This document shows, piece after piece, positions 3,856 through 54,679 of a DNA stretch of 64,000 nt. Source of the DNA: Tillus elongatus (Eukaryota; Arthropoda; Insecta; Coleoptera; Cleridae); contig OZ023267.1 of assembly GCA_964006375.1 (NCBI GenBank), positions 12,749,846-12,813,845 on the forward strand. The letters run 5' to 3'. Under the pieces are notes generated by a model that worked only from the letters and a program-made list of their open reading frames with translations, searched no databases and had not been told where the DNA came from. The position numbers and the translations under genes were made by a program. Every line of letters begins with the position of its first letter. Positions within the stretch are counted from its first letter, which is position 1.

Positions 3856-4208
3856 TACAGTCGGTATTTTCACTCGAATGTGGAAAGGTGGGCTTGTGAT
3901 GAGTTATGGATGGTGTCCTTTGTCTGTGTGTCAGTGGCGACTCGTCAGATTACGCAAGTGAAGCGCTGCTTCACCTATATTTTTCGGTTAAACTAAACTT
4001 TTTTATTCAAAATCCGCCATAATTTTAATTTTTTTCACTCTCTCAAATTCATTTGCTACAACCACATAAAAATGTTATTACGTCGCGCCGCAGTTGATAA
4101 TGTATTTTTATAGTAATTTATGGTACGATATAAATTGCAAGCCCGTCCGTCATCACCGAATTGAATGTATACAAGCCGCAACGCGCAACGTTTACGTATT
4201 GCGGAACT

Positions 4209-4500
4209 GCAGAGCGTCAAGCAGCTGCGGATTGACTGAGCCAGATTTGTTCGTATACAAATGCTGCCTCTGTTTCGGGGTGCTTGCATGAGACGGTTGC
4301 CATGGTAACGGCACGCGTACCGGTAGGTTGGGCCACAAAAGTGATGCAGACTACTGTAGAGCGTCAAGCAGCTGCGGACTGACTGAGGCAGATTTTTTCG
4401 TATACAAAAGCTGCGTCTGCTTCCAAACGTGTGCATGAAACGGTTGCCATGGCAACGGCATGCTCAGTGGTAGGTTGGGTCACAAAAGTGACGCAGCCCT
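4209..4500. repeat. Two tandem copies of a 147-bp unit
   Basis: The segment starting GAGCGTCAAGCAGCTGCGG at 4212 recurs at 4359. Both copies continue through a run containing GGTTGCCATGG and end near CACAAAAGTGA. Divergence is moderate, so the duplication is not fresh. GC content is higher than in the surroundings. No coding function recognised. Confidence 0.8.
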
Positions 4501-5847: not shown

Positions 5848-6032
5848 ATCTGACATTTGTCAAAATAATTTGTCTCTTGAATATGACATGTACTGTTGCC
5901 ATTAACTATTATGCACTATTGTATTACGCCTTATAACAATATTTTTTTTGGAGTACGAAAGCTGATTTTACTATTTTAATATTTTTCGACCCCTTAACAC
6001 GAAACGGTTTTCTTTTCTATAAAATTACATCA

Positions 6033-6276
6033 CTATGTGAAAACTGGAACCTGTGATGAGCACTGATAAGTAGACTTGGAGAACCCAAATCACCACAACA
6101 CATATTTTAAAGAGCTTACGATCGTTTCGCCGACAACGTCAACGTCATCAGAGGATGAAAAAATCTGTAGAATTCTACAGAATTTTTCATCCTCTGATGA
6201 CGCTCACGTTTTTGGCGAAACGATCGTAAGGTCTTTAAAATATGTGTTGTGGTGATTTGAGTTCTCCAAATTTACT
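6033..6276. mobile_element. 244-bp foldback element with hammerhead-like cores and 13-bp target duplication
   Basis: A near-perfect palindrome centred near 6175. Each arm contains, reading outward from the centre, CATCCTCTGATGAC, a short stem-loop, GAAACGATCGTA and a block containing TGTGTTGTGGTGATTT. The element is flanked by a perfect 13-bp repeat TAAAATTACATCA (6020-6032 and 6277-6289). Related copies: 7062-7547, 24718-24770, 27584-28421, 36225-36460. The terminal sequences may come from a Penelope-like element; that is inference. Confidence 0.75.
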
Positions 6277-6299
6277 TAAAATTACATCAATTATGTTCA

Positions 6300-6826: not shown

Positions 6827-7060
6827 AATTGTGCTGTGAAAATTGTTCTCTATGTCACATGACCAAGGCCTACTAATGCAGTTTTTCTATGTCAAAAAAT
6901 GGAAAAAAGGTTTAGCGCCATTTTTAGGGGGGAAAAAGTACGCCACTGCAACCGGCATCCCTCAAAATAGATATATGCCAAATGTTATCAAAAAAGGAGA
7001 CTTATTAACCATTTCAGAGAAGTTTATTTGTGTGACCCGTGTATATGGAAACACTTAAGT
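6827..7060 (+). mobile_element. MITE-like repeat, also present inverted at 21900-22130
   Basis: Starts GTGAAAATTGTTCTCTATG and ends near GTGACCCGTGTATATGGAAA. The same sequence appears reverse-complemented at about 21905-22130. No coding capacity seen. Confidence 0.5.
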
Positions 7061-7061
7061 G

Positions 7062-7543
7062 AAGATTGGAACCTGCGATGAGCACTGATAAGTACACTTG
7101 GAGAACCCAAATCACCACAACACATTTAAAAAAGACTCGACGATTGTTTCACTAACCAAGTTAGCGTCATCAGAGGATGAAAAATTCTAACTACTTTAAA
7201 AACTAACATCACCTTATATACCGGATCTTAGGTAAAGAGACCGAACTAGAGATGGGAAACTAACCGCAGGCAAAACTCTGCAGTGTATTGTATTTTTATC
7301 GCCGGACGATGTCTTTGCACTGTCCCTACTAACTTATCTAAAAGGTGTCCATCTTTAATAATTTTGGGAAGGTTCAACGACAACTAAATTAACATAGTTT
7401 CCTTTGGCGGAAATATCTGTATTCTTATGTTATCTTTAGGACGTGTTGAAACGTGGGAATTTATTTAACAAAGCAATCGATCAGGTGACTCGTAATCGGC
7501 GGTGGTGAAATGTTGATACATTTTTTGTTGTAACTATATTTCG

Positions 7544-7547: not shown

Positions 7548-7621
<74 letters not shown>
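7546..7621. repeat. (AT)n microsatellite, left flank of Bel insertion
   Basis: About 38 AT units ending directly at the first base of the 5' LTR. The tract resumes at the end of the 3' LTR (20813), so the retrotransposon landed inside one microsatellite. An AT-only target duplication cannot be delimited. Confidence 0.95.
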
Positions 7622-7622
<1 letters not shown>

Positions 7623-8044
7623 GTTGATGCAAGTTTGTATATATTTTTGAATTTGAAATTGCCGCCAGACATTTAGGGATTGCTGCTCGCCGTGGTTGGC
7701 ACCACTGAGAGGAGGAGAGGGGGCAGATTTTGTGACAGCCTCTCTCTCTCTCTCTCGCGACGTAAACCAGCGTCACTGCGTTAGAATCAGTCGTCCTGAA
7801 AACTGCTAGTACTCCAGACTAGGGATGTGCTCCAGATTTTCTGGTCTAATTTTCTTGTTACATAATTTTTTGCCTCATTTGGGGTGAAGATAGTCGCCCG
7901 ACCTCCAAAGAAGACCCTAAAACCCACGTGAAGATACAGTCCATTACACAGGTGAGTGCCTCTCTTATTTGTCTGGTATAATTTAAAATCTAACTTTATT
8001 GTAAACAATTCCTCTTTATTATTTCGTAATATCTTGCAACAACA
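7622..8044 (+). repeat. Bel/Pao 5' LTR
   Basis: 423 bp with imperfect terminal inversion TGTTGATGCAAG / CTTGCAACAACA. Contains a CT-rich run (about 7739-7756). The 3' copy at 20390-20812 has the same length and is almost identical, so boundaries are well fixed. Confidence 0.93.
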
Positions 8045-8047
8045 TTT

Positions 8048-8065
8048 TGGTCCATCGAAGCCGAT
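8048..8065 (+). promoter_or_regulatory. Putative tRNA primer-binding site
   Basis: TGGTCCATCGAAGCC begins four bases after the 5' LTR, the usual place and TGG start of a primer-binding site complementary to a tRNA 3' end. I could not identify the tRNA. Confidence 0.5.
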
Positions 8066-8419
8066 GCTTGTTTGATTAGAATTGACACTTGTGGGTGTTC
8101 ATATCGTGAATTTATGCACACGTGTTTGGCGGTTTTGTTGTTAAAAATCGTAATTTATAGCCTCCAGGGTTTGGTTAGAACACGTGTTCGGGTCGGCAAA
8201 TCCGTGTTAGTGTAATTGTTTTGCTTGTTTAATTTGTTTTACGGCCTTTTAGCGTCAAAATTGTTTTGTTTTTCAGTGTCTCGCAATCGGAGATTTTCGA
8301 GCTCTGTTACTTGTTTGAAACGTGTTTTTTTCGACGTGAAACACGTGGTTATCATCCGATTGGGTTCAGGTTATATCAGTCTTTTCTGGTTTGCCTTTTC
8401 GTTTTTTGTCATTTTTGAA

Positions 8420-11400
8420 ATGGAGGTGGAAAAGTTGATAAATAAACGTAACTCTGTTATGAATCGAGTGCAACACCTATCAAGGTTTGCATTAGACGCC
8501 AAGGCTGAACCCACAAAAAGGAATGAATTTAGAATCAGATACCAAGGTCTTAACGATTCTGTAAATTTGTTTGATTCTTTACATCTGGACATCGTGTCTT
8601 TAATGAAGGATAAGGATAATTTGGCTTTACAATCGGAGATTCAGACAGACTTCGACAACATACAGTACAGCATCAAGTCAATCTATTTTGAAATTTGTGG
8701 TAAGGTTACTGCTGATGCTGCCGATGTAGCTAAGTCGCTCGATAATGAGGCTCACTCTGATAGTGGAACGGGTGGCAGACGTAATGTTCGATTGCCTAAG
8801 ATCGATATTCCGAAATTTGACGGGGCGATTGGTCAGTGGCCACGTTTTTTCGATTTGTTTAGGACTCTGATTCATGAAAATGACACTTTGTCAGATATTG
8901 AGCGTTTCCAGTATCTTCTTGCTTCCTTGACAAAAGAACCAGCTTCAATAGTTCAAAACCTACCCCTCATTTCGGATAATTACCAAGTGGCATATAATTC
9001 GCTAGTTTCAAGGTATGAAAATAAACGTGTGTTGCTTACGAATTACTGGTTAGCTCTTCTTAATGCTCCGAAGGTGTCAGGCGATTCATCTCGAGATTTA
9101 AGGAATTTGTTGACAACATTTACTGAAAACGTATGTGCGTTAGATTTATATCAAGAGCAGCAGTATGATTTGTGGGACTTTACGAAATTCAATTTCCTTT
9201 TGCAAAAGTTAGATTCCTCTATCCGAAAGCAATTTGAAATACAGTTTGGTGACTGTGAGGTCCCCACGTACTCGCACCTTAGTGATTTTTTAGAAAAACA
9301 GTGCAAGGCTCTTGAAACATCTGCGCTAACCGTAGCACCGGTCTCAGTGAAGAAGGGTCCTCAAATGTTGAAAGGGAAACAGTTCGTGCAGCCGAAACCA
9401 ACCACTTCTTTGGTGACTAGTGTTAGTAAGTCAGATTCATCAATTTCTTGTGTGTGTTGCCAGGGGGAACACTCATTGACGAAATGTGACAAGTTCTTAG
9501 AAATGTCTCCTAAGGATCGTCATACCTTAGTGAAGAGGAAAAGTCTGTGCTATAATTGTCTGGCTGGGTCTCACAAACTCGCAGGGTGTACCTCGAAATT
9601 TAATTGTCGTGTTTGTACTAGGAAACATCACACATATTTGCATTTTACATCAAGCTCTGGTCAGACTGATACACAAACATGTGAGCAAGGTGATAACAGA
9701 CCCGACCAAGTAACCGGTCAAGTCGTATTGACAAGCACGCTTCCCAGCTTCCCTATTGTATTATTTGCCACATGTAAAGTGGATGTGTGTGATGCTTATG
9801 GGGTGTATCATAGATGTCGTGTGCTGCTCGATTGTGCAAGTCAGGCAAATTTCATTACGCAGCGCCTTGTAAGCAAACTTTCTCTGTCGAAGTCACATGC
9901 TTCTGTTCCAATTCAGGGGATAAATCAGATGGCCACCGTTACTGATTTGGGGGTTACTTCATTTAGGTTGAGACCTCGGGACAAACCTAATCCTAGTTTC
10001 GATATCGATGCTATTGTGGTTCCCAGAATCTGCGACAAGGCACCTTCAACGGACGTACAATCATATGTCTGGAATCATATCAAAGACCTTGCTTTAGCGG
10101 ATGATACTTTTGGTCAGCCAGGGGACATTGATATTTTATTGGATGCTGATATATATGCAATGGCATTGTTACCGGGACTTAGAAAGGGTAAGGATCAGGA
10201 ACCTACTGCTATCAATACAGTGTTTGGTTGGGTAATCTTGGGTAGTGTACCAGCCCAATCGAATTTAGTGGTTGATTCCTTTTGTACGTCGGTCGATGTT
10301 TCTCTGGACAAAACTCTCAGACAATTTTGGGAATTGGAGCAAGTGCCTCAGTGCACATTAGCGAGTCCGGAAGATGCCCTGTGTGAGAAGATCTTCCAGG
10401 ACACTCATTCACGTGACTCTAATGGTAGATATGTCGTGGGCCTGCCATTTCGTGATGGGATGCCAGATCTGGGTGAGTCACATTCCATGGCATTGAGACG
10501 GCTTCATGCTCTAGAGAGACGATTGTCCAAAGAGTCAGATATCCGTAGAAAGTATGTGGCTTTCATGCGTGAGTATCTGAGCGATGGGCACATGTCTCCT
10601 GTGTCGTGTAAGGTATCACATCCTAGTGCCGTCTACTACATCCCTCATCATTGTATCTTGAAACCCGAAAGTACTACTACAAAGTTACGGGTGGTGTTCG
10701 ACGCCAGTGCTAAGACCTCAAATGGCGTCTCGCTCAACAACACCCTATTGGTTGGACCCAAGTTGCAGCAGGATATTGTGACAGTCCTGTTGAATTTTCG
10801 GGCTCATCGAGTCGCCTTTACTGCAGACATTAAGCAAATGTTTCTGCAAGTATTGGTGGCAGAGGAGCATAGGGACTTCCAGCGCATTCTTTGGCGGTTT
10901 TCCAATTCTGAGCCAGTGCAAGAGTTCAGACTCAATACAGTGTCCTTTGGTGTTGCTTCTAGCCCCTATCTTGCCATTAGGACCCTCTTACAGGTGGCAA
11001 CAGATTTAGGTGGTAAATATCCTCTTGCAGCAGACGTCATAAGGTCTGACACGTACGTGGATGACATAGTAACTAGTGTGCCAGATTCCAATTCTGCAAT
11101 TGAAGTGAAATCTCAACTGATAGGAATGCTCGGAGAGGCTGGATTTGAGTTGCGAAAATGGGCAAGCAATGATCCCGAATTTCTTGCGTCTCTCCCCAGT
11201 AGTCATCAGCAATCTCTGTGTTTCGACTCTGATGACTTAGTGTCTGTCAAGATTTTAGGACTACAGTGGTGTCCAATGACTGACTGCTTCTCGTACAAGG
11301 TACATCCAATTGAACGCAAATGCACCAAGCGTAACATACTGTCAGAGCTTGCTAGAATCTTTGATCCTTTGGGTTTCTTGTCTCCCCTCACCCTCTCTGC

Positions 11401-12794
11401 GAAGCAGCTGATGCAGTTCCTGTGGCAGCTAGGCATTTCGTGGGATGAAAAACCACCACTAGAAGTCGAATCCAGGTGGGACACATACAAATCGCAACTT
11501 TCTTGTTTGTCATCGTTGTCAATTCCGCGGTATGTGTCTGCTGAAGGTACTACTTCTTCTACATTGCATGGATTCTCGGATGCGTCTGAGCTTGGTTATG
11601 GGGCCGTAATTTATCTTCGTGTTGTATCCGCCAGCGGAGCCATAAAGATATCTCTCTTGTGTGCTAAGTCTCGTGTCTCCCCACTAAAAAAAGTATCAGT
11701 ACCCCGATTGGAGCTTTGTGCAGCAGCCTTGTTAGCAGAGTTGATGGAGTTCGTTCAGGTTACATACCGAAAGACTATTTCTATTGATAATATATTTTGC
11801 TGGTCTGATTCCACAGTTGCCATTCAGTGGATTAAGTCATCTCCCCATCGATGGAAAACGTTTGTGGCCAATAGAGTGGCGCTCATACAAGAAAAGGTAC
11901 CCCCTGGTTGCTGGTCACATGTTTCGGGGTTAATCAACCCTGCAGATTGTGCATCGCGCGGACTTACTCCTAATGAGCTTCTCAATCACCCGCTATGGTG
12001 GACGGGTCCGGCTTTCTTGTCCGAACCATCCGATACATGGATTAGCGCAGAATCTTTAGGTGAAGAGTCCGATGTCATGATGTCGGAGCAAAGGCAAGTT
12101 GTGTGCATGACAAAGGTTGTTTCGTGTGATTGGCCGCTGAATTTGTTAGAAGGGTATTCTTCGCTGAGGAAAATTCAAGGTATCATTGCTTACAGTATGA
12201 GGTTTGTCAAAAATCTGAAATTACCCCGGAAGGACAGAATTTCGGGCGCATTGAGTGAGGCGGAGCTTTACACTGCACTGACTTTTCTTGTTAAAGCAGT
12301 ACAAAGGTTGGCGTTTGAGAGGGAAATGCGTGACATTGAGCATGGTCGACCTTGTGTAAAGTCTATCCGTAGGCTGGCCCCATTTGTGGATAGGGATGGT
12401 GTTCTCAGGGTGGGCGGTAGACTTAGATGCTCGGACTTGTCGTTTGATGCAAAGCATCCCATGCTTCTGCCACGTTCACACTTGCTCACTGACTTGGTGA
12501 TTCGTAGTGTCCATCAGAAACACTTACATCCTGGACCTCGTACCTTGCAGTATTTGTTGTCACAAAATTTTTGGATTCTTTCGGCCCGCCGGGCAATTAA
12601 TAGTGTGCTTGGGCAATGTTATCGTTGTTTCCGTGTTCGCCCGGTAACTTTGACACCTGTAATGGGGGATCTTCCTCCAGTAAGAGTTTCTCAGCTGAAA
12701 CCATTCTCTCACACTGGAATTGATTTTGCCGGTCCATTTCTCGTTACCCAGGGAAGATATCGTGGTGTCAGAAGTGCGAAGGCATATGTGTGTA
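8420..12794 (+). pseudogene. Bel/Pao gag-pol, N-terminal part through first half of integrase
   Basis: A single frame of about 1458 codons from the ATG at 8420. This start is chosen because the peptide MEVEKLINKR opens a normal Gag, although the frame is open from 8216. Domains in order: DUF1759-type Gag (about aa 125-300); cysteine/histidine knuckles (about aa 340-410); DUF1758 aspartic protease with LLDCASQ (about aa 470); reverse transcriptase with YVDD (about aa 878); RNase H with GFSDAS (about aa 1050); integrase zinc-binding region and first catalytic Asp in GIDFAGPF (about aa 1433). The frame then enters the satellite array and stops at 12850. The remaining integrase is at 19475-20275. 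Confidence 0.92.
12782..12794. repeat. Left copy of the array's target duplication
   Basis: GCATATGTGTGTA, repeated exactly at 19475-19487. Because the last bases also resemble the satellite junction, the true duplication is between 8 and 13 bp. Confidence 0.8.
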
Positions 12795-12800
12795 AGACTA

Positions 12801-12891
12801 GATGCATTCTCGCAACAATTAGAACCGCAGACCGGTTTCGCTCTCATTAGAGCTCCTCAGTACGGCACACTAATTGCAGCAAAAATGCACC
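12801..12891 (-). ncRNA. Type I hammerhead ribozyme, representative minus-strand copy (1 of 9)
   Basis: Same fold as the plus-strand copy described at 15521-15611. The complement of the CTGAGGA core is at 12854-12860 and the predicted cleavage falls between 12830 and 12829 on the minus strand. Distal stem I strands are GATGCATTCTCGC (12801-12813) and the region around 12881-12893. Further copies follow every 307 bp to the ninth at 15310. Confidence 0.85.
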
Positions 12892-15338
12892 AAAAATAAC
12901 ACGGCTATCGTATAGCCAGTCTCAAAACACTAAGTGAGTAGCGAACGTGTCGCCACCTAGTTCGGAACCAAGTACTATGTTGTCACGCCCGCTCCAAATA
13001 ATACAGAGTATTAAAAATAGAGACGGTATACAACTAACTAACAATTTAAAAAATTGTTAGCCCTGGCCCATTTCTACCCCAATATAGGGACAAAGTATGT
13101 AAGACTAGATGCATTCTCGCAACAATTAGAACCGCAGACCGGTTTCGCTCTCATTAGAGCTCCTCAGTACGGCACACTAATTGCAGCAAAAATGCACCAA
13201 AAATAACACGGCTATCGTATAGCCAGTCTCAAAACACTAAGTGAGTAGCGAACGTGTCGCCACCTAGTTCGGAACCAAGTACTATGTTGTCACGCCCGCT
13301 CCAAATAATACAGAGTATTAAAAATAGAGACGGTATACAACTAACTAACAATTTAAAAAATTGTTAGCCCTGGCCCATTTCTACCCCAATATAGGGACAA
13401 AGTATGTAAGACTAGATGCATTCTCGCAACAATTAGAACCGCAGACCGGTTTCGCTCTCATTAGAGCTCCTCAGTACGGCACACTAATTGCAGCAAAAAT
13501 GCACCAAAAATAACACGGCTATCGTATAGCCAGTCTCAAAACACTAAGTGAGTAGCGAACGTGTCGCCACCTAGTTCGGAACCAAGTACTATGTTGTCAC
13601 GCCCGCTCCAAATAATACAGAGTATTAAAAATAGAGACGGTATACAACTAACTAACAATTTAAAAAATTGTTAGCCCTGGCCCATTTCTACCCCAATATA
13701 GGGACAAAGTATGTAAGACTAGATGCATTCTCGCAACAATTAGAACCGCAGACCGGTTTCGCTCTCATTAGAGCTCCTCAGTACGGCACACTAATTGCAG
13801 CAAAAATGCACCAAAAATAACACGGCTATCGTATAGCCAGTCTCAAAACACTAAGTGAGTAGCGAACGTGTCGCCACCTAGTTCGGAACCAAGTACTATG
13901 TTGTCACGCCCGCTCCAAATAATACAGAGTATTAAAAATAGAGACGGTATACAACTAACTAACAATTTAAAAAATTGTTAGCCCTGGCCCATTTCTACCC
14001 CAATATAGGGACAAAGTATGTAAGACTAGATGCATTCTCGCAACAATTAGAACCGCAGACCGGTTTCGCTCTCATTAGAGCTCCTCAGTACGGCACACTA
14101 ATTGCAGCAAAAATGCACCAAAAATAACACGGCTATCGTATAGCCAGTCTCAAAACACTAAGTGAGTAGCGAACGTGTCGCCACCTAGTTCGGAACCAAG
14201 TACTATGTTGTCACGCCCGCTCCAAATAATACAGAGTATTAAAAATAGAGACGGTATACAACTAACTAACAATTTAAAAAATTGTTAGCCCTGGCCCATT
14301 TCTACCCCAATATAGGGACAAAGTATGTAAGACTAGATGCATTCTCGCAACAATTAGAACCGCAGACCGGTTTCGCTCTCATTAGAGCTCCTCAGTACGG
14401 CACACTAATTGCAGCAAAAATGCACCAAAAATAACACGGCTATCGTATAGCCAGTCTCAAAACACTAAGTGAGTAGCGAACGTGTCGCCACCTAGTTCGG
14501 AACCAAGTACTATGTTGTCACGCCCGCTCCAAATAATACAGAGTATTAAAAATAGAGACGGTATACAACTAACTAACAATTTAAAAAATTGTTAGCCCTG
14601 GCCCATTTCTACCCCAATATAGGGACAAAGTATGTAAGACTAGATGCATTCTCGCAACAATTAGAACCGCAGACCGGTTTCGCTCTCATTAGAGCTCCTC
14701 AGTACGGCACACTAATTGCAGCAAAAATGCACCAAAAATAACACGGCTATCGTATAGCCAGTCTCAAAACACTAAGTGAGTAGCGAACGTGTCGCCACCT
14801 AGTTCGGAACCAAGTACTATGTTGTCACGCCCGCTCCAAATAATACAGAGTATTAAAAATAGAGACGGTATACAACTAACTAACAATTTAAAAAATTGTT
14901 AGCCCTGGCCCATTTCTACCCCAATATAGGGACAAAGTATGTAAGACTAGATGCATTCTCGCAACAATTAGAACCGCAGACCGGTTTCGCTCTCATTAGA
15001 GCTCCTCAGTACGGCACACTAATTGCAGCAAAAATGCACCAAAAATAACACGGCTATCGTATAGCCAGTCTCAAAACACTAAGTGAGTAGCGAACGTGTC
15101 GCCACCTAGTTCGGAACCAAGTACTATGTTGTCACGCCCGCTCCAAATAATACAGAGTATTAAAAATAGAGACGGTATACAACTAACTAACAATTTAAAA
15201 AATTGTTAGCCCTGGCCCATTTCTACCCCAATATAGGGACAAAGTATGTAAGACTAGATGCATTCTCGCAACAATTAGAACCGCAGACCGGTTTCGCTCT
15301 CATTAGAGCTCCTCAGTACGGCACACTAATTGCAGCAA

Positions 15339-15343
15339 AAATG
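15339..15343. other. Orientation switch of the satellite array
   Basis: Left units contain GCAAAAATGCACC and right units contain GGTAGAAATGGGCC. The junction reads GCAAAAATGGGCC, so the two blocks join through the shared AAATG. This is head-to-head with respect to the ribozyme's 5' side. It may be a genuine template-switch or end-joining product, or an assembly join. Confidence 0.9.
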
Positions 15344-18300
15344 GGCCAGGGCTAACAATTTTTTAAATTGTTAGTTAGTTGTATACCGTCTCTATTTTTA
15401 ATACTCTGTATTATTTGGAGCGGGCGTGACAACATAGTACTTGGTTCCGAACTAGGTGGCGACACGTTCGCTACTCACTTAGTGTTTTGAGACTGGCTAT
15501 ACGATAGCCGTGTTATTTTTGGTGCATTTTTGCTGCAATTAGTGTGCCGTACTGAGGAGCTCTAATGAGAGCGAAACCGGTCTGCGGTTCTAATTGTTGC
15601 GAGAATGCATCTAGTCTTACATACTTTGTCCCTATATTGGGGTAGAAATGGGCCAGGGCTAACAATTTTTTAAATTGTTAGTTAGTTGTATACCGTCTCT
15701 ATTTTTAATACTCTGTATTATTTGGAGCGGGCGTGACAACATAGTACTTGGTTCCGAACTAGGTGGCGACACGTTCGCTACTCACTTAGTGTTTTGAGAC
15801 TGGCTATACGATAGCCGTGTTATTTTTGGTGCATTTTTGCTGCAATTAGTGTGCCGTACTGAGGAGCTCTAATGAGAGCGAAACCGGTCTGCGGTTCTAA
15901 TTGTTGCGAGAATGCATCTAGTCTTACATACTTTGTCCCTATATTGGGGTAGAAATGGGCCAGGGCTAACAATTTTTTAAATTGTTAGTTAGTTGTATAC
16001 CGTCTCTATTTTTAATACTCTGTATTATTTGGAGCGGGCGTGACAACATAGTACTTGGTTCCGAACTAGGTGGCGACACGTTCGCTACTCACTTAGTGTT
16101 TTGAGACTGGCTATACGATAGCCGTGTTATTTTTGGTGCATTTTTGCTGCAATTAGTGTGCCGTACTGAGGAGCTCTAATGAGAGCGAAACCGGTCTGCG
16201 GTTCTAATTGTTGCGAGAATGCATCTAGTCTTACATACTTTGTCCCTATATTGGGGTAGAAATGGGCCAGGGCTAACAATTTTTTAAATTGTTAGTTAGT
16301 TGTATACCGTCTCTATTTTTAATACTCTGTATTATTTGGAGCGGGCGTGACAACATAGTACTTGGTTCCGAACTAGGTGGCGACACGTTCGCTACTCACT
16401 TAGTGTTTTGAGACTGGCTATACGATAGCCGTGTTATTTTTGGTGCATTTTTGCTGCAATTAGTGTGCCGTACTGAGGAGCTCTAATGAGAGCGAAACCG
16501 GTCTGCGGTTCTAATTGTTGCGAGAATGCATCTAGTCTTACATACTTTGTCCCTATATTGGGGTAGAAATGGGCCAGGGCTAACAATTTTTTAAATTGTT
16601 AGTTAGTTGTATACCGTCTCTATTTTTAATACTCTGTATTATTTGGAGCGGGCGTGACAACATAGTACTTGGTTCCGAACTAGGTGGCGACACGTTCGCT
16701 ACTCACTTAGTGTTTTGAGACTGGCTATACGATAGCCGTGTTATTTTTGGTGCATTTTTGCTGCAATTAGTGTGCCGTACTGAGGAGCTCTAATGAGAGC
16801 GAAACCGGTCTGCGGTTCTAATTGTTGCGAGAATGCATCTAGTCTTACATACTTTGTCCCTATATTGGGGTAGAAATGGGCCAGGGCTAACAATTTTTTA
16901 AATTGTTAGTTAGTTGTATACCGTCTCTATTTTTAATACTCTGTATTATTTGGAGCGGGCGTGACAACATAGTACTTGGTTCCGAACTAGGTGGCGACAC
17001 GTTCGCTACTCACTTAGTGTTTTGAGACTGGCTATACGATAGCCGTGTTATTTTTGGTGCATTTTTGCTGCAATTAGTGTGCCGTACTGAGGAGCTCTAA
17101 TGAGAGCGAAACCGGTCTGCGGTTCTAATTGTTGCGAGAATGCATCTAGTCTTACATACTTTGTCCCTATATTGGGGTAGAAATGGGCCAGGGCTAACAA
17201 TTTTTTAAATTGTTAGTTAGTTGTATACCGTCTCTATTTTTAATACTCTGTATTATTTGGAGCGGGCGTGACAACATAGTACTTGGTTCCGAACTAGGTG
17301 GCGACACGTTCGCTACTCACTTAGTGTTTTGAGACTGGCTATACGATAGCCGTGTTATTTTTGGTGCATTTTTGCTGCAATTAGTGTGCCGTACTGAGGA
17401 GCTCTAATGAGAGCGAAACCGGTCTGCGGTTCTAATTGTTGCGAGAATGCATCTAGTCTTACATACTTTGTCCCTATATTGGGGTAGAAATGGGCCAGGG
17501 CTAACAATTTTTTAAATTGTTAGTTAGTTGTATACCGTCTCTATTTTTAATACTCTGTATTATTTGGAGCGGGCGTGACAACATAGTACTTGGTTCCGAA
17601 CTAGGTGGCGACACGTTCGCTACTCACTTAGTGTTTTGAGACTGGCTATACGATAGCCGTGTTATTTTTGGTGCATTTTTGCTGCAATTAGTGTGCCGTA
17701 CTGAGGAGCTCTAATGAGAGCGAAACCGGTCTGCGGTTCTAATTGTTGCGAGAATGCATCTAGTCTTACATACTTTGTCCCTATATTGGGGTAGAAATGG
17801 GCCAGGGCTAACAATTTTTTAAATTGTTAGTTAGTTGTATACCGTCTCTATTTTTAATACTCTGTATTATTTGGAGCGGGCGTGACAACATAGTACTTGG
17901 TTCCGAACTAGGTGGCGACACGTTCGCTACTCACTTAGTGTTTTGAGACTGGCTATACGATAGCCGTGTTATTTTTGGTGCATTTTTGCTGCAATTAGTG
18001 TGCCGTACTGAGGAGCTCTAATGAGAGCGAAACCGGTCTGCGGTTCTAATTGTTGCGAGAATGCATCTAGTCTTACATACTTTGTCCCTATATTGGGGTA
18101 GAAATGGGCCAGGGCTAACAATTTTTTAAATTGTTAGTTAGTTGTATACCGTCTCTATTTTTAATACTCTGTATTATTTGGAGCGGGCGTGACAACATAG
18201 TACTTGGTTCCGAACTAGGTGGCGACACGTTCGCTACTCACTTAGTGTTTTGAGACTGGCTATACGATAGCCGTGTTATTTTTGGTGCATTTTTGCTGCA

Positions 18301-19474
18301 ATTAGTGTGCCGTACTGAGGAGCTCTAATGAGAGCGAAACCGGTCTGCGGTTCTAATTGTTGCGAGAATGCATCTAGTCTTACATACTTTGTCCCTATAT
18401 TGGGGTAGAAATGGGCCAGGGCTAACAATTTTTTAAATTGTTAGTTAGTTGTATACCGTCTCTATTTTTAATACTCTGTATTATTTGGAGCGGGCGTGAC
18501 AACATAGTACTTGGTTCCGAACTAGGTGGCGACACGTTCGCTACTCACTTAGTGTTTTGAGACTGGCTATACGATAGCCGTGTTATTTTTGGTGCATTTT
18601 TGCTGCAATTAGTGTGCCGTACTGAGGAGCTCTAATGAGAGCGAAACCGGTCTGCGGTTCTAATTGTTGCGAGAATGCATCTAGTCTTACATACTTTGTC
18701 CCTATATTGGGGTAGAAATGGGCCAGGGCTAACAATTTTTTAAATTGTTAGTTAGTTGTATACCGTCTCTATTTTTAATACTCTGTATTATTTGGAGCGG
18801 GCGTGACAACATAGTACTTGGTTCCGAACTAGGTGGCGACACGTTCGCTACTCACTTAGTGTTTTGAGACTGGCTATACGATAGCCGTGTTATTTTTGGT
18901 GCATTTTTGCTGCAATTAGTGTGCCGTACTGAGGAGCTCTAATGAGAGCGAAACCGGTCTGCGGTTCTAATTGTTGCGAGAATGCATCTAGTCTTACATA
19001 CTTTGTCCCTATATTGGGGTAGAAATGGGCCAGGGCTAACAATTTTTTAAATTGTTAGTTAGTTGTATACCGTCTCTATTTTTAATACTCTGTATTATTT
19101 GGAGCGGGCGTGACAACATAGTACTTGGTTCCGAACTAGGTGGCGACACGTTCGCTACTCACTTAGTGTTTTGAGACTGGCTATACGATAGCCGTGTTAT
19201 TTTTGGTGCATTTTTGCTGCAATTAGTGTGCCGTACTGAGGAGCTCTAATGAGAGCGAAACCGGTCTGCGGTTCTAATTGTTGCGAGAATGCATCTAGTC
19301 TTACATACTTTGTCCCTATATTGGGGTAGAAATGGGCCAGGGCTAACAATTTTTTAAATTGTTAGTTAGTTGTATACCGTCTCTATTTTTAATACTCTGT
19401 ATTATTTGGAGCGGGCGTGACAACATAGTACTTGGTTCCGAACTAGGTGGCGACACGTTCGCTACTCACTTAGT
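15344..19474 (+). repeat. 307-bp retrozyme-like satellite, inverted block (ribozyme sense on plus strand)
   Basis: Thirteen full and one partial copy (13.5) of the same 307-bp unit in opposite orientation. The mark at the end of GAAATG recurs at 15343, 15650, 15957 and so on to 19334. No copy-to-copy difference was seen. Ribozyme cores CTGAGGA start at 15552 + 307k for k = 0 to 12. Besides the hammerhead, each unit holds three further hairpins: GGCTAT-ACG-ATAGCC, AATAC-TCT-GTATT, and CTAACAATTT-TTT-AAATTGTTAG. Confidence 0.97.
15521..15611 (+). ncRNA. Type I hammerhead ribozyme, representative plus-strand copy (1 of 13)
   Basis: Self-cleaving RNA motif. Core C3-A9 is CTGAGGA (15552-15558). 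Stem II is GCTCT/AGAGC closing an AATG loop (15559-15572), with the usual G10.1-C11.1 pair. GAAA follows at 15573-15576, then stem III as the palindrome ACCGGT (15576-15581) and C17 at 15582, so the cleavage triplet is GTC. Stem I pairs TGCGGT (15583-15588) with GCCGTA (15546-15551), has an internal loop T / TGT, then CTAATTG (15590-15596) with CAATTAG (15536-15542), then an extended helix reaching 15521 and 15611. The open stem I makes it type I, the form reported in metazoan repeats. Not tested by folding software. Confidence 0.88.
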
Positions 19475-20275
19475 GCATATGTGTGTATTTTTGTTTGCAT
19501 GACCACAAAGGCTGTGCATATTGAATCGGTATCAGACCTCACCTCGGAGGCTTTTCTTGCTGCTTTTCGGCGCTTTGTGGCTCGAAGAGGTCGTTGTGAC
19601 AATGTCTACAGTGACTGCGGCACTAATTTTGTCGGGGCCAACCGATTGTTGGTTTCATACGCACATCAGGTGACTGATTCCTTGTCAATTGAGTGGCATT
19701 GGAATCCCCCAGCAGCGCCGCACTTTGGAGGACTGTGGGAAGCAGGGGTTCGTTCCATTAAAACTCGCTTGCGTCGTGTTGTTGGCACACAGGTTCTGAC
19801 ATTCGAGGAACTGACCACTGTTCTGGCACAGATTGAAGCAGTTCTTAATTCCCGACCGCTCTGTAGTCTTAGTACAGACCCCAATGACATGACATCGCTT
19901 TCCCCTGCGCACTTCTTGACCATGGAGCCTCTTTGTGCCCCACCTGACCCAGACGTGACTGATGTCAAACTTACCAGACTTTCTCGTTGGCAACTTGTTT
20001 CCAGAATGCATCAAGATTTTTGGAAACGCTGGAAAAGTGAATATTTGCACACCTTGCAGCAGCGCAATAAGTGGTCTACCCCCCAAGAAGCTCCTTCGAT
20101 TGGTACTCTCGTTGTCATCAAAGATGAGACAGTGTCTCCGCTTGTGTGGAAGTTAGGGCGCATATTGAAACTCTATCCGGGTCGTGATGGTGTTGCCCGT
20201 GTCGCTCAAGTACGAACAAGCACAAGTATTTTAGATCGTCCTATGACCAAGCTGTGCCCTTTACCTTCGCAGTAA
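19475..20275 (+). pseudogene. Bel/Pao integrase, second half
   Basis: Continues the gag-pol frame after the satellite array: codon phase is the same on both sides of the duplicated GCATATGTGTGTA. It holds the second catalytic Asp in YSDCGTNF (about 19609) and the catalytic Glu in GGLWEAGV (about 19736), about 42 residues later as usual for Pao integrases. The C-terminal tail contains the LWKLGRI-like region (VWKLGRI) typical of the family. Stop TAA at 20273-20275. The array therefore separates the first catalytic Asp from the other two residues and abolishes integrase. Confidence 0.9.
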
Positions 20276-20389
20276 ACGGCCAGTACGCATCTCCCATTTG
20301 TATAGTTAGTTATAGTGTGTATCTACCAATTTAATTTAATCTTTGCATTTTTTAATCGGAAATAAGTAGTCCTTATTTGGTGGGCGGAA
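20276..20389 (+). other. Bel/Pao 3' untranslated stretch with weak polypurine tract
   Basis: Short spacer between the gag-pol stop and the 3' LTR. A purine-rich GGTGGGCGGAA directly precedes the LTR and is the best candidate plus-strand primer site. Confidence 0.5.
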
Positions 20390-20929
<540 letters not shown>

Positions 20930-27583: not shown

Positions 27584-28421
27584 CTAAGTGAAGATTGGAA
27601 CCTTTTGATGACCACCGACAAGTACACTTTGAGAACCCAAATCACCACAATACATCTATCTAAACACCTGACGATCGTTTCACTAACAAAGTTAGCGTCA
27701 TCAGAGGATGAAAAATTTTAAGCTACTTAATTACCACCAAACATCACATTTTATACTAAGCCTTAGGTAAAAACCGATAACGAGAGGGACGAAATATCAG
27801 GCATATTTTCTGTGTATTGTATTTAAATTGCCGGACGAGGTTTTTGAAGTTCCGCTATAACTTTACCCGCCGAGGTTCGCAATATTTTCTATGTCAAAGA
27901 TAGAATGTAAACAAAAGGCTATAAGTCAATAGCGGAACACGATTTAATTTATTGCCCTAGAAAGTTAAATACTTTCGTATGCATCTCACTTCGTTTGCTG
28001 TCTAAAACGTATCAAAAATGTTAGACAACCAGCAGCGACGTTAGATACGTACGAAAGTATTTATATTTCTAAGACAATAAACCATAAAAGTTCCTTAAAC
28101 CGAGCTCCGCCATTGATTTATAGCCCGTTGTTTACACTCTGTCTTAGACATAGAAGATATTCCGAAAGTCGACAGGTAAAGTTTTATAACCGAAGTTCAA
28201 AAACCTCGTCCGGCAATCAAAATACAATACACATTAAATTTGCCTGAGATTTCGTCCCTCTCTTTATCGGTCTTTACCTAATTAGTAGTATAAAAGGTGA
28301 CGTTTGGTTGTAAGTAGTTTAGAATTTTTCATCCTCCGATTACGCTAACTTTGTTAGTGAAACGATCATCAGGTCTTCAAAAAGGTGTATTGTGGTGATT
28401 TGGGTTTTCTATGTGTACTTC
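27584..28421. mobile_element. 838-bp foldback element of the hammerhead-like family
   Basis: A long imperfect inverted repeat centred near 28005. Left arm begins TAAGTGAAGATTGGAACC; arms share CCTCGTCCGGCAAT, GAACTTC-bearing and TTCATCCTC blocks. A 14-bp target duplication, TGGAAG(A/G)ATAATGA, lies at 27570-27583 and 28422-28435. The minus strand of the left arm keeps an intact hammerhead-like core (CTGATGAC, stem GCTAAC/GTTAGT, GAAACGATCGTC, about 27665-27720). The right arm's core is mutated (CCGATTA). Confidence 0.75.
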
Positions 28422-28469: not shown

Positions 28470-28740
28470 TGCAAAAATTTTAAACAACTTGGAAGAAAAT
28501 CTCTGGAAGGATCACCAAAGAGATGGTTAATGGTTACAAAGCTAGATTTTTTCGTCAACAAAAAAAGCGAGGCCCTAACAGGAGTGTGTTAAGAAATAAT
28601 ATTACTGAAAAAGCGAACCCAAAGAAGAAGAAAGCAACGGCAATGGCGAAGACGACGATGACAACGACGATGTGGACTACGACGTTGACAACGACCAAAA
28701 CGAGTATCGCAATTTTAACAAAAATTATCATTAACACATA
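28470..28740 (+). repeat. Second copy of the segmental duplication, non-receptor part
   Basis: Matches 23820-24075. The apparent frame here (Lys- and Thr-rich, 28523-28741) is a translation of a GAC/ACG-rich simple region and is not treated as a gene. Confidence 0.75.
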
Positions 28741-29441
28741 GCTTCGAGTGTTTGCATACCATTTTTGTAACAGCAACCTTTAATTTTTACCAGCAAAATA
28801 TTGATTATTTGAAATCTCCAATAAAAATTGAGTATTATAATAGTGAAATGGGCGACAAAAGCAGCTGTCACCAATAGCGGTACGTCTATTACCATCCATA
28901 TGTCAATACCCATAACTGAACCCAGCTTTAGAGATTCTCCAGCAAAGCACAGTACAATCTGCAAAACAATGTGTACACCAATGATTATTACCACGAGATA
29001 AACCATAAAATATAGCTGCACTTTCCTGTAATGCACATAATTAAGTTTACCTCCAACACTTATAAGCATGCCATCAATTCTTATGAGTGTTTCATATATT
29101 TCTATAACTCCATAGGTAAACAATGCGGTGTTCATTAGAATAAAGTAGTGCGCAGCAGCTCCAAAAACGATCTGGCACAGCATACCGAATTTCGACAGAG
29201 GCTGTTTATAAAACGTATCTAATAAACCATCATCGTTATTGTCGTTTAAGATTCTACAAATGGCGACAGTTAAGATCATTCCATAGGATGCTGTGATAAG
29301 AACAAAGTTTCTTATATGATAAGGTCTATATTTGTCATTTTTCTTTATAAGAAACGCTGGGAACACGCCAAGAATAGCGCACAGAGTTATCGAGACTCTA
29401 AGGCTTTTATAAACTTGATTCGTGGGCTTGTTAAAGTTCAT
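28731..29441 (-). CDS. Gustatory-receptor-like protein, N-terminal exon or truncated gene, copy 2
   Basis: An open frame of 236 residues from ATG at 29441. It opens with MNFNKPTNQVYKSLRVSITL and continues through about five hydrophobic segments, such as the LVVIIIGVHIVLQIVLCF and VTAAFVAHFTIIILNFYW regions. The start resembles insect 7tm_7 gustatory receptors (a conserved SLR...LLGVFP-like opening). Members are usually 370-450 residues, so this is only the first half. A possible splice donor CTG|GTAAAA lies near 28790 on the minus strand, but no C-terminal exon with the family TYhhhhhQF motif was found downstream. It is either a first exon with distant partners or a truncated relic. Copy 1 is at 24077-24725. 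Confidence 0.6.
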   Translation of the reverse strand: MNFNKPTNQVYKSLRVSITLCAILGVFPAFLIKKNDKYRPYHIRNFVLITASYGMILTVAICRILNDNNDDGLLDTFYKQPLSKFGMLCQIVFGAAAHYFILMNTALFTYGVIEIYETLIRIDGMLISVGGKLNYVHYRKVQLYFMVYLVVIIIGVHIVLQIVLCFAGESLKLGSVMGIDIWMVIDVPLLVTAAFVAHFTIIILNFYWRFQIINILLVKIKGCCYKNGMQTLEAMC

Positions 29442-29749
29442 GTTGTGGCTTGTAGAGTGTAGAGGAACAGAAAAGCCGACGTATTCAAATCATTATTGGA
29501 AAAACGTTTCGGTAGGTATAATTCCTGGAACGCAGTAAACTTGTTTTTAATATACCCCTGAGATTAATAATCTGATAATATAAATACCCCTGAGATTAAT
29601 AATCTGATAATATATATTTCGGAATATCTAGCTAATTGTTTAGGATGACTTGTTGTTCGAAAAGAGTTAAGTACCATGTAATAATTAAATTTATAGTTAC
29701 TTACATGAATAGATTATGGCTTAAGAAAATTTTTATTTTCTGTTATTCT

Positions 29750-30279: not shown

Positions 30280-30713
30280 ACGCAGCAAGTGCGTTATGGT
30301 AGTGAATTTTTATTAAATGCTTCAAATTTGAATAACTCAATTTTCTATAAACTTAGAAAGTTTAATTTTGGTATGTAGTTTAGTTTCAGAGGGCAAGATA
30401 TTCACCAAATTTCATTAAAACAACTTTGTAATTTTTGGAGAAAAAAATTTTTCGAAAGAAAATTTAAAATTTAAATAAGGCAATTTTCGATAAACTTTGA
30501 AAGTGGAATTTTGGTACTTAGTAAGGTCTCCTCCAAGGCAACATATATAGTAAATTACATTAAAACAGCTTTGTTATCTTCGGAGACAAATTTTTTTTTT
30601 GAAAGAAAACTCAAAATTTTCCCGGAAAACCCCATCTGATTTTCCTGGATAACGAACTCATCCAATCCATTATTCATTGAAATCGGTTAATTATTTTTTA
30701 AGTTATTAGACGG

Positions 30714-31440: not shown

Positions 31441-32118
<678 letters not shown>

Positions 32119-33351: not shown

Positions 33352-34215
33352 CACCACGAGGGCTCACAGCTTCAATACTACCGTAACGTGGGTGTCGACA
33401 AGGAAATCCTCGGGAGAAAAGAGCGGGCATAACAAGATGTTCTATGTCTGCTGACCTGGACAGTAAAGGGTGCATTCGCTCTGTTCTCCTGGTAGATCTG
33501 TTGGAGACAGCAGGTGGAGGAACTATGAAAGAAAGCTCCTCCGAGCAGTCCCCGTGCAGATATCTGTAAAAGAGAGAGAGGTCACCAACGGCACGTCGGT
33601 GGGCAAGTGATGGCAGCCTTTGGGTGAGGGTCGGGTCACCGATGAGACGTATAGCTCTCTTCTGAATGGAGTCCAGGATAGCGAGCGTAGAAGCGGCAGC
33701 GGCACGTCAGATGTGGGAGCAGTATTCGAGGTTTGGTCTTATTTGTGAAGTATATAAGGTATAGAGATTAGCTGGTGAAAAGTATTTGCGAGCCCGGAAG
33801 CGGAAACCTAATTTCTTAGCAGCCGCTTCTGCAATTGATATGACATGTTGGTGCCAATTGAGATTTCGATCCACAGAAATGCTAACAAGTGAAAAGGACT
33901 CATTACTTTGAATAACTTGGTTGTTCATTGTGATGGGTCTAGGGCTGGTGCATATCTTATGAGATAGAAGGCAAGACTGAGATTTGGTGGAGTTGAATTG
34001 TACAAGATTTCTACTTCCCCAGTCCAATATTTTTTGGAGATTCACAGATACAGAACCCTCCATGAATCTGCTATCCCCATCTAATTGGGCTAAAGAGGCA
34101 GTCTTAGAATATTGTATATTTGAGTGGAGGGTGCTGTCGTCCGCGTAACTGTGAACTGGATTGGATGTATTAGAGATGAGGTCACTGATGTGGAGAAGAA
34201 ACAAAGTAGGGGCTA
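33352..34215 (-). pseudogene. LINE family A copy, 3' half of ORF2
   Basis: Minus-strand 5'-truncated copy. The frame at 34204-33707 starts just after the RT SQGSA block and includes FLLHISDL, SYADDSTL and the thumb ending in RPNLEYCSH. It then shifts frame. The 3' end, near CACGAGGGCTCACAGC, corresponds to the tail at about 2620. A small deletion removes part of the C-terminus relative to the 182-2655 copy. Confidence 0.8.
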
Positions 34216-35769
34216 AAGCTAAAGGTAAAGGTAAAGCTAAAGCTTAATTTAAAAATAACATTTGATTGTAAGTCTACGCCGTTTCTTTCATAGTCAGATC
34301 GCGAAATGTTTGCGCTTAGCTCGTATATGGATACAAACTAGATATAAAATTGAAATGTAAAACGGTTTAAATTTCAATTTATATCAAGGACGAACTTAAG
34401 CATTCAAATTACTACACTGCTGAAATTAAGATATGTAGGTACCTACATTTTTCATTTTTCATTAGAGATCGGATGGATCGATACTTGAAAAGTTATTCTA
34501 GATCCATTACGTAGTTTATCAAACACGTTTTACATGTGCTTTCGTTAATTATTTTTTAATCGAAATTTTAAATAGTTATAAAAACTAGTTTAAGTACTGA
34601 AAACTTATAGACTTTCTCAAAGAAAAATAGTACTGCAAATCGAATCGTAACTTTGATGATATCTACTCTCTCAAGAAAGACTTTTTCATGAAATGAATTT
34701 GTAGTCGATGACTTGATTACAAAGAATTAACCTTGAAAGTATTCGTTAAAGTCAAATACAAGGTCACCTTCAGATAGCCAAGAAAATATTCTGAAGTTTT
34801 TGCCTTGACCTTTTCTCCCTGCGACTTGAACTTTCTGAGTTATGTGGCTGCTTTTTGTACACGAGCGGCTGATTTTCAAATGACCTTGAAAAGTAACTGC
34901 TCGAAGTCATATCTGGACGTGAAATTTTTTGATCTTCCGATTTCCGGGATCATTATTATGGGTTCCTACCCAAAAATACGAAGTTGGCCTTGATTTGACC
35001 TTGAATGTCAGTCAAGATCATGTCCAAGGTCACCTGCGGATAGCTAAAACTTGAACTTTCTGAGTTATATTCGGCAATGATGAAATTGAAAGCTTTCAAA
35101 TAAACAAAACCTAAAACGTTATAATAATCGAGCATATTAACGAAGAAATTTCAATTTTCACCAAATCACCCCCCTTTTCTCCCCTACCCACTTGAGCTAT
35201 TTTACCCAAAAACAATCCGAACCGTTCGTTTGTCGGGTACTAACTGTACGCCGAATTCGAAGACGATATCTCATTTCGTTCGAAAGTTATCGTACCTACT
35301 AACAGACAGACGTACAGATCGACAACAAAAATGTTCATTCTGAAATCATGTTTTCGATATGTTTTGAGACTCTACGCCGTTTTGGCAAACAAAGTTCGGA
35401 ATTTCTGTCACCGATACCATATCTACTTCTACACGTTGTAACGATGTGGTAGTAATAAAACACAAATGGGAACATTTGTTACAAAAAAAGTTTTCGGCAT
35501 GGAATAACCCGTTGTCTATGTACAATGTTCATAGAATCTGATCTATAAACCTTGCTGTCATCCCTAGAATATTCTCCTAAATTGGAAAAATGAGCTAATG
35601 GCAAAAAGTCACAGCCATAATTCGAGTAACACCACCAGCAACAATCCCTAGAAAATTGACATAACTTTATATTGGAGACACTGTTTTCTTAGTGACATAA
35701 GGGTGACACTTCAATGAAGTTAAATGACAGGAAGTGCCAGTGCAAGTGCAACAACGGAACAAAAGGTCG
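34216..35769. other. Unassigned intergenic DNA with an imperfect internal repeat
   Basis: Two related segments about 250 bp apart (about 34730-34860 and 34985-35070) share CAAGGTCACCT, ACTTGAACTTTCTGAGTTAT and GACCTTGA motifs, so a decayed repeat is likely. No protein family recognised. The right end lies upstream of the septin start and may include its promoter or untranslated exon, but I see no clear TATA box or initiator. Confidence 0.45.
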
Positions 35770-36224: not shown

Positions 36225-36451
36225 TGATCCCGATAAGTACACTTGGAGAATCCAAATCACCACAACACATTTAAAAAAACCTAATTATCATTTCACTAAC
36301 CAAGTTATCGTCATCAGAGGATGAATAATTCTAAATATCTTATATCTACAACTCTATTTATATTCCTCTGCAGGTAGTCAGTCACTAACGATTTAGGGAG
36401 GTTCAACGACACCAAAAATTAACATTTTGTTTGGCAGGAACATCTGCATTC
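36225..36451 (+). mobile_element. Left half of a hammerhead-like repeat copy, split by the nest at 36452-40531
   Basis: Begins within the CACTTGGAGAATCCAAATC block and matches 7090-7400 in order, including GGTTCAACGACA. Its continuation, TGTATTCTTTAATTATCTGT onward, resumes at 40532 and matches 7420-7547. The core is degenerate (GTTATCGTCATCAGAGGATG on the plus strand). Confidence 0.7.
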
Positions 36452-40934: not shown

Positions 40935-41166
40935 ATTGCCACATTTAATGCCAAGAGTGTGTTCCCGCTTTAACGAAACAACAGATCTAAAATGCTTTTT
41001 ACACACAATCCTGTCAACCTGACCTTCTGGACCTGACAACAACGCCTATCTGCAATTTAATCCCAAGTGTGTTTTGCCGCTTTAACGAAATAAAAGATCT
41101 AAAATGCTTTTTACACACAATCCTGCCGACCTGACCTTTTGGACCTGACAACACCGCCTATCTGCA
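40935..41166. repeat. Two tandem copies of a 112-bp unit
   Basis: AAAATGCTTTTTACACACAA and GACCTGACAAC recur with a 112-bp offset. Both copies carry CCGCTTTAACGAAA. Mild divergence. Lies inside septin intron 2. Confidence 0.8.
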
Positions 41167-46344: not shown

Positions 46345-47145
46345 CTCACACTTGTAGATACTGTTGGTTATGGTGATCAGATTAACAAAGAGGACAGCTT
46401 TAAGGCAATAGTCGACTACATTGACGCCCAATTTGAAAATTATTTGCAAGAAGAGCTAAAAATCAAGAGATCACTCTGCAACTACCATGACACACGTATC
46501 CACGTTTGTCTGTATTTTATATGTCCAACAGGTCACGGTCTTAAATCCATCGATCTAGTATGTATGAAAAAACTCGATGAGAAAGTCAACGTTATACCGA
46601 TCATAGCCAAAGCTGATACAATATCAAAGACCGAATTGCAGAAGTTCAAATCGAAAATAATGGCTGAATTACAGAACAACGGTGTTCATATCTATCAGTT
46701 TCCTACAGACGATGAATCTGTATCTGAAATTAACGAAACGATGAACTCTCATATACCATTTGCGGTGATTGGTAGTACAGACTTTGTCAGAATGGGTAAC
46801 AAGAATGTGAGAGCTCGTCAGTATCCTTGGGGCACTGTGCAGGTGGAGAACGAAAGCCACTGTGACTTCGTGAAGCTTCGCGAGATGCTGATCCGCACTA
46901 ATATGGAAGATATGCGGGAGAAGACTCACGGCCGTCACTATGAGCTCTATAGAAAGAAGCGTCTTGAACAAATGGGTTTTACGGATGTGGATGCCGATAA
47001 CAAACCCATTAGTTTTCAACAGACCTTCGAAGCTAAGAGATCGAATCATCTGCAGGAGCTGCAGCAGAAAGAGGATGAAATGAGACAGATGTTTGTGGTA
47101 AGAGTCAAGGAGAAGGAGGCTGAATTGAAAGAAGCAGAGAAAGAG
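46345..47145 (+). CDS. Septin exon 4: most of the G domain and start of the coiled coil
   Basis: Acceptor TTTGTAG, donor GTATTA. An 801-base phase-0 exon of 267 residues. It holds the switch II motif DTVGYGDQ (aa 102-109), the guanine-specificity motif AKAD (aa 185-188), and the septin unique element with [11 protein letters not shown] and [11 protein letters not shown] followed by [15 protein letters not shown]. The end, rich in Glu, Lys and Met (from about aa 325), begins the C-terminal coiled coil. Confidence 0.95.
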
Positions 47146-47321
47146 GTATTATTTATTATTAAAATCTACCTAATTTTCAGGTTGTTTTAAGTTTTCATTT
47201 ATACAGAAGATCTTTAGATGAAAAAGCACAAAATGATTTCATGAACAAAGAGCAGTAACATTATTTTTTATGGAAAAATTAGAGATTCAGTAGGCTCAAG
47301 TTGCTGTTTGTCAATAAAATG

Positions 47322-54660: not shown

Positions 54661-54679
54661 CTCGGCTTCAAAATATTAT

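Follow-up and report, generated by a model that had tools for sequence, protein, structure and literature searches.

Results

We analysed a window of 64,000 nucleotides of the beetle Tillus elongatus (contig OZ023267.1, positions 12,749,846 to 12,813,845; all coordinates below are those of the window, which is the whole stretch) and found in it a block of identical 307-bp units, inserted within a BEL/Pao retrotransposon. The block looks like one recent mobile insertion. We consider it probable that this one insertion, with its two opposed runs of the unit, comes from a likely non-LTR retrozyme (LTR: long terminal repeat) which was reverse transcribed from a small RNA circle, with a start at each end of a staggered break. 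In a more specific form of this account, towards which we incline with less assurance, the block would be the preserved footprint of a two-sided target-primed reverse transcription: both ends of the break would have copied one ribozyme-made 307-nt circle, over 8.3 and 13.5 laps, and the two complementary DNAs (cDNAs) would have annealed at 5 nt.

Two opposed arrays of one unit

Tandem Repeats Finder reports the 307-bp period in two rows, both with 100% matches: 12791-15343 (8.3 copies) and 15339-19475 (13.5 copies). When the two arrays together (6,685 distinct bp) are compared with one 307-bp unit, 0 mismatches are found, which places the 95% upper bound of the divergence among units at 0.045%, on condition that the units were not made uniform by polishing. 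The initial annotation of this DNA had described a satellite at 12795-19474. The tandem 307-bp unit is indeed there, with coordinates correct to a few bases; the word satellite is misleading, however, for the block is built like a single insertion, showing a target-site duplication (TSD) and two opposed runs. The strand switch at 15339-15343, the TSD in the integrase region of a BEL/Pao element and the loopless stem III of the ribozyme (see below) are additions to that description.

The 31-base core of the hammerhead occurs in 22 copies, 9 on the minus strand and 13 on the plus strand. The sense strands of the two arrays diverge and the 5' sides of the RNA meet at the centre, i.e. the arrays are head-to-head. 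At their join they overlap by a short common word (Table 1); an overlap of at least 5 bases was obtained in 0.45% of 200,000 random joins. The outer ends of the arrays lie at positions 39 and 209 of the unit, which are 170 nt apart on a 307-nt circle. All the predicted cleavage sites (22 of 22) are crossed without any gained or lost base. This absence of scars fits a closed circular template, and it disfavours jumping between linear monomers, a possibility which we had considered.

The unit has a GC content of 42% and no coding capacity: on a four-unit multimer, the longest frame starting with ATG has 26 amino acids on the plus strand and 27 on the minus strand. No diverged second copy of the unit was found within the window (among the 12 matches listed, the best has an E-value of 0.39 and the lengths are 18-46 bases). 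A 27-base piece of the unit gave 0 matches in viral contigs, and two units (614 bases) gave no match in plasmids.

The insertion site

The block is lodged in a BEL/Pao retrotransposon, whose integrase region it splits (Table 1). We found 133 relatives of this element, of which 120 were listed and 60 of these 120 put to local comparison. The pieces of coding frame to the left and to the right of the insert were both matched in 60 of the 60 compared relatives; among the 40 matches listed, the match of the right piece begins 1-23 residues before the match of the left piece ends. The closest relative among those listed, P0001 (72% identity), is uninterrupted and has a single copy of the duplicated residues, and 56 of the 120 listed relatives fit a loose regular expression written for the motif without interruption. 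The eight top-ranked named relatives (among the 120 listed of 133) all come from beetles: Anoplophora, Callosobruchus, Cylas, Anthonomus, Brassicogethes, Molorchus, Leptinotarsa and Tribolium. The BEL/Pao element (7620-20813) lies within an (AT)n stretch; this young element has itself been hit.

As 4 bases of the duplicated word on the left and 1 base on the right belong to the unit too, we set the length of the TSD at 8-13 bp. The 4 bases which the left outer end has in common with the target are expected by chance in 1.5% of cases. A TSD and two opposed runs inside a BEL/Pao element argue for a single recent mobile insertion rather than for an expanded satellite. The LTRs of this element are nearly identical, and the array, as it lies inside the element, must be younger still.

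A hammerhead ribozyme in each unit

Read along the unit, one finds CTGAGGA, a stem II made of GCTCT and AGAGC with the loop AATG, then GAA, ACCGGT, a C and finally a long stem I, which consists of 6 pairs, an internal loop and additional helices. We take CTGAGGA to be C3 U4 G5 A6 G7 G8 A9 of the hammerhead core, GAA to be positions 12-14, ACCGGT to run from A15.1 to U16.1 and the following C to be C17. From this reading, each unit is predicted to carry a type I hammerhead, with cleavage after GGUC. A relaxed Rfam scan of a 701-base stretch gave Hammerhead_HH9 twice, with 26.3 bits each (E-value 3e-4), far under the gathering score of 52 from which a sequence is assigned to an Rfam hammerhead family. 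In the HH9 alignment, the five positions which the model has in the loop of helix III are deleted; the core and stems I and II agree with our reading. We kept the hammerhead identity despite this score, given an intact core and intact helices I and II.

The 91-nt hammerhead piece has a predicted folding energy of -43.1 kcal/mol, the mean of its shuffles being -22.5 (standard deviation, sd, 3; z = -6.9; 0 of 200 as low). The type I hammerhead in every unit, as proposed in the initial annotation, is supported by 22 intact cores, by the relaxed HH9 match and by a fold z of about -6.9. The core letters, the stem II and the stem I which had been named are present in the sequence and in agreement with the relaxed alignment; the stem III, as it had been drawn, cannot close in one molecule.

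A loose pattern of the core matches the window 24 times, where 100 shuffles give 0.05 matches on average: 22 of these matches are in the arrays and 2 are in another repeat. We rejected these two, at 7139 and 27670, as further hammerheads, since their stem uses the base needed at position 12; at the 7139 match, no hammerhead is listed by Rfam up to an E-value limit of 10. The match at 27670 is situated within a dispersed inverted-repeat element (27620-28420, two arms 79% alike), and that at 7139 is in a relative of it. Related pieces of this element lie at 7056-7335, 6029-6277 and 36230-36335, and its hairpin (CTGATGACGCTAAC..GTTAGTGAAAC) fits the loose hammerhead pattern without a free G12. 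Outside the window, the core pattern with CCGGTC has 2 matches in viral contigs and at least 118 in prokaryote genomes. We take these as chance, because a search for 16 fixed bases through 257 billion bases, both strands included, should give about 120 matches (an estimate).

Predicted circular RNA and dimers

Folded as a circle of 307 nt, the plus strand reaches -105.9 kcal/mol, compared to -74.9 (sd 4.5) for dinucleotide shuffles (z = -6.9; 0 of 300 as low), while the fold of the minus circle stands out less (-61.2 kcal/mol, z = -2.3 over 100 shuffles). The plus strand is predicted to be a highly self-paired circle, as expected of an animal non-LTR retrozyme.

Helix III of this ribozyme is the loopless palindrome ACCGGT, which can close on itself by at most one A-U pair over CCGG, while two copies of ACCGGT can form a 6-bp helix III between them. 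As helix III has no loop within one molecule, we predict that the ribozyme works in dimeric form, like those of amphibian retrozymes, and the hammerheads would probably cut in this form. In the amphibian case, where helix III consists of one pair closed by a palindromic tetraloop, cutting is poor alone and better in dimers (PMC7229834). In a single unit, the fold in which the core is open and helix III unpaired has an energy of -39.3 kcal/mol, which is 3.8 kcal/mol higher than the optimum of -43.1. Two adjacent units, no loop-loop contacts being counted in these dimer energies, give -154.4 kcal/mol as a nested double hammerhead for a free optimum of -157.1. The fold used for comparison, in which helix III is open, lies at -149.5 kcal/mol and has the strands of stem II paired across the units, so that it is not a clean reference for two single ribozymes.

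Discussion

Proposed mechanism

In the published model of animal retrozymes, reverse transcription of a circular template yields multimers, aided by an element which the model does not identify (PMC7229834; PMC7761336). We propose that the present insertion arose in the following way. The unit would be transcribed as a multimer; the hammerheads would cut it after GGUC, probably as dimers through the 6-bp helix III between two copies of ACCGGT; and the 307-nt monomer would be closed by a host ligase, a step known from reports on other animal retrozymes. Then a trans-acting reverse transcriptase, which is most likely Penelope-like, would cut the strands of the BEL/Pao element 8-13 bp apart and extend both 3' ends on the circle. 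One cDNA would have made 8.3 laps and the other 13.5, leaving no scar at the cleavage site at each lap, and the cDNA ends would have joined at the 5-bp microhomology; the runs of these lengths, the intact sites and the common word are what is observed in the DNA. The head-to-head layout would be due to the extension of cDNA from both 3' ends of the staggered cut on a sense RNA. We count in favour of this account the uninterrupted frame in the relatives, the TSD, the opposed arrays with 0 mismatches, the microhomologies at the join and at the left end, the 22 scarless cut sites, the intact hammerhead core with its relaxed HH9 match and the low energy of the circular fold.

If this is true, the block provides direct genomic evidence for the circular intermediate proposed in the transposition of animal retrozymes, and it indicates enzymes of the Penelope type as helper. 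The entry of animal retrozymes into new sites has so far been described by a published model only; a recent insertion which retains its priming points, its laps and the join of its cDNAs opens this model to base-by-base testing and to comparison across copies. It would also give a one-step origin to perfect satellite-like arrays within other elements.

The helper enzyme

From the following comparison, the reverse transcriptase would most likely be of the Penelope type. In vitro, one Penelope-like protein is able to cut as well as to extend both strands; according to its authors, this is not shown for R2 and L1 (PMC11167929). Penelope insertions of rotifers have TSDs of 8, 9 and 10 bp and head-to-head inverted repeats, some of them being without TSD, and for these inversions the authors favour self-priming on antisense templates (PMC3846280). 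The present insertion shares with Penelope-like insertions the size of the TSD, the head-to-head repeats and the microhomology, and the Penelope enzyme works on both strands (PMC3846280, PMC11167929); it differs from them in that the insert is without Penelope coding sequence and in that the priming points are not the same on the two strands. The traits in common (a TSD of about 8-10 bp, the head-to-head repeats) also fit other target-primed insertions.

Several observations speak against the account given here. At the gathering level, Rfam finds 0 families in the whole window; the lack of an Infernal hit above threshold is, literally, one of the outcomes which the initial annotation had set against the hammerhead. 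When the 91-nt piece and the circle are folded to their predicted optimum, the bases of the core are partly paired with each other, which means that this optimum is not the active form. The right outer end of the insert has only 1 base in common with the target, as do 44% of random ends. As for the enzyme, the two starts are 170 nt apart (positions 39 and 209) whereas identical internal sites are primed on both strands in the anole Penelope, and the ribozyme of the anole protein is dispensable for its insertion in vitro (PMC11167929). Among the frames scanned in the window no Penelope-like gene was identified, and pieces of LINE-like reverse transcriptase (LINE: long interspersed nuclear element) are present. 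Finally, the structure of the array is known from a single locus in the 64-kb window.

Other explanations

The same retrozyme RNA could have been inserted by twin priming or dual priming of a LINE and not by a Penelope-like element, which we find unlikely. In L1 twin priming, two opposed cDNAs are indeed enclosed in one TSD (PMC2837659), the repeats of a sea anemone retrozyme have 15-bp TSDs which have been likened to those of LINEs (PMC4918200), and we also count for this explanation the LINE-like reverse transcriptase frames of the window. However, neither end of the insert bears a poly(A) or any other tail, the site is no obvious target of the L1 type (TTTT/A), and the dual-strand activity of one protein is, as mentioned above, reported for the Penelope-like enzyme and stated to be unproven for R2 and L1. 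The template of L1 twin priming is linear with poly(A), and multimers are not described in the passages of PMC2837659 concerned.

We give little credence to a capture of extrachromosomal or genomic satellite DNA during the repair of a break, or to an uncut multimeric transcript as template in place of the circle. Both routes could yield tandem units and joins at microhomologies, and a homogeneous donor array would yield identical units, but the capture of DNA does not predict a TSD of 8-13 bp with cDNA-like opposed runs, and an uncut transcript of at least 14 units, all with intact ribozymes, seems less likely than a circle.

An assembly artefact is very improbable in our opinion. Chimeric reads which fold back can produce large perfect palindromes, repeats can be mis-joined, and polishing can even them out; but here the two flanks differ, belong to a single coding region that runs on from one to the other, and have a duplication in common. 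None of this would be expected from a fold-back read, and the opposite orientation of the outer ends requires an inversion between them. Foldback elements have long inverted arrays of tandem units, a short TSD and matching terminal inverted repeats, and although the inverted tandem arrays and the short TSD found here resemble the first two of these features, a DNA transposon of this kind, with long inverted repeats built of tandem units, can practically be dismissed, because its ends read inwards differ (AGACTAGATG and CACTAAGTGA, at unit positions 39 and 209) and so offer no matching terminal repeats to a transposase, and because the hammerhead would be left unexplained.

Other features of the window

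Table 1. Positions of the retrozyme arrays, of their insertion site and of related features in the window
Feature	Position	Strand	Details
Minus array	12791..15343	-	2,553 bp, 8.32 units, 0 mismatches to one reference unit, 9 hammerhead cores
Plus array	15339..19475	+	4,137 bp, 13.48 units, 0 mismatches to one reference unit, 13 hammerhead cores
Head-to-head join of the arrays	15339..15343	.	5-bp word AAATG common to both arrays
Example hammerhead	17069..17139	+	core 17087-17117; predicted cut after 17117 (GGTC); Rfam HH9 26.3 bits, gathering score 52
Left target-site duplication, GCATATGTGTGTA	12782..12794	+	12791-12794 match the unit too; direct reading, boundary extension
Right target-site duplication, GCATATGTGTGTA	19475..19487	+	19475 matches the unit too; direct reading, boundary extension
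BEL/Pao frame left of the insert	8216..12850	+	Peptidase_A17, DUF1759, Integrase_H2C2, RVT_1 below cut-off; final codons inside the array
BEL/Pao frame right of the insert	19421..20275	+	DUF5641; initial codons inside the array
5' LTR of the host BEL/Pao (aligned stretch)	7620..8045	+	differs from the 3' LTR at 1 of 426 aligned bases
3' LTR of the host BEL/Pao (aligned stretch)	20388..20813	+	aligned with the 5' LTR
LINE-like reverse transcriptase pieces	203-1935, 33707-34243, 53465-54675		at least 2 pass or are near RVT_1 in Pfam (1180-1935, 53465-54088); others by frames only

Elsewhere in the window there are isolated two-copy tandem duplications at 4206-4496, 30324-30596, 31465-31761 and 40943-41166, whose periods are 147, 143, 145 and 112 bp respectively; the consensus units of the 143- and 145-bp duplications look alike. 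A chemosensory receptor-like frame (28731-29489) matches 7tm_7 just under the cut-off, and a septin frame lies at 46345-47190, its best named relatives being those of the beetles Rhamnusium (91% identity), Asbolus (94%) and Tribolium castaneum (92%). These two gene-like frames speak for an insect as host. No transfer RNA genes were found within the window.

Comparison with known systems

Animal non-LTR retrozymes have been defined by a type I hammerhead, tandem units, a GC content below 50%, the absence of LTRs and, when present, a TSD of more than 4 bp; their units measure about 150-450 bp, have no coding capacity and give a highly self-paired circular RNA (PMC7229834). Such retrozymes cleave themselves, occur as both linear and circular transcripts and are scattered through their genomes in many copies. 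In our case we find one hammerhead per unit, a period of 307 bp, 42% GC, no coding capacity, a TSD of 8-13 bp and a predicted self-paired circle. On these sequence features the 307-bp unit is likely a non-LTR retrozyme, and the retrozyme-like character first suggested for it agrees with the published definition.

The likeness to the animal non-LTR retrozymes of coral, mussel and axolotl (PMC7229834) thus extends to the type of hammerhead, the unit size, the GC content, the absence of LTRs, the TSD and the compact circle. The differences are that the sequence of our unit is new as far as searched, that two opposed arrays stand in one TSD and that the present family is known from DNA alone. In the literature searched (titles and openings of abstracts, mostly of papers outside subscription) we found no description of opposed retrozyme arrays in one TSD. 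The main text of PMC7229834 does not contain the word "inverted" (0 occurrences), which is met once in PMC7761336 (in the reference list) and once in PMC4918200 (in the list of abbreviations).

In the hammerheads of amphibian retrozymes (newt, and axolotl HHR_Amex1), helix III likewise has a single pair above a palindromic tetraloop, and action as a dimer is expected; here, however, the host is an insect, and the helix III of invertebrates is said to be usually more stable (PMC7229834). Type I hammerhead repeats had already been noted in insects (PMC7229834). The satellite pDo500 of cave crickets is likewise a tandem repeat of insects with a hammerhead, for which single and double forms have been proposed (PMC2837043). 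In the double form proposed for it, stems I and II are formed between molecules and stem III is local, whereas in our unit it is stem III which must pair between copies. Animal retrozymes, their arrays, their circles and their long TSDs were known; as far as we have searched, this family and the structure of its insertion, with two opposed arrays, are new.

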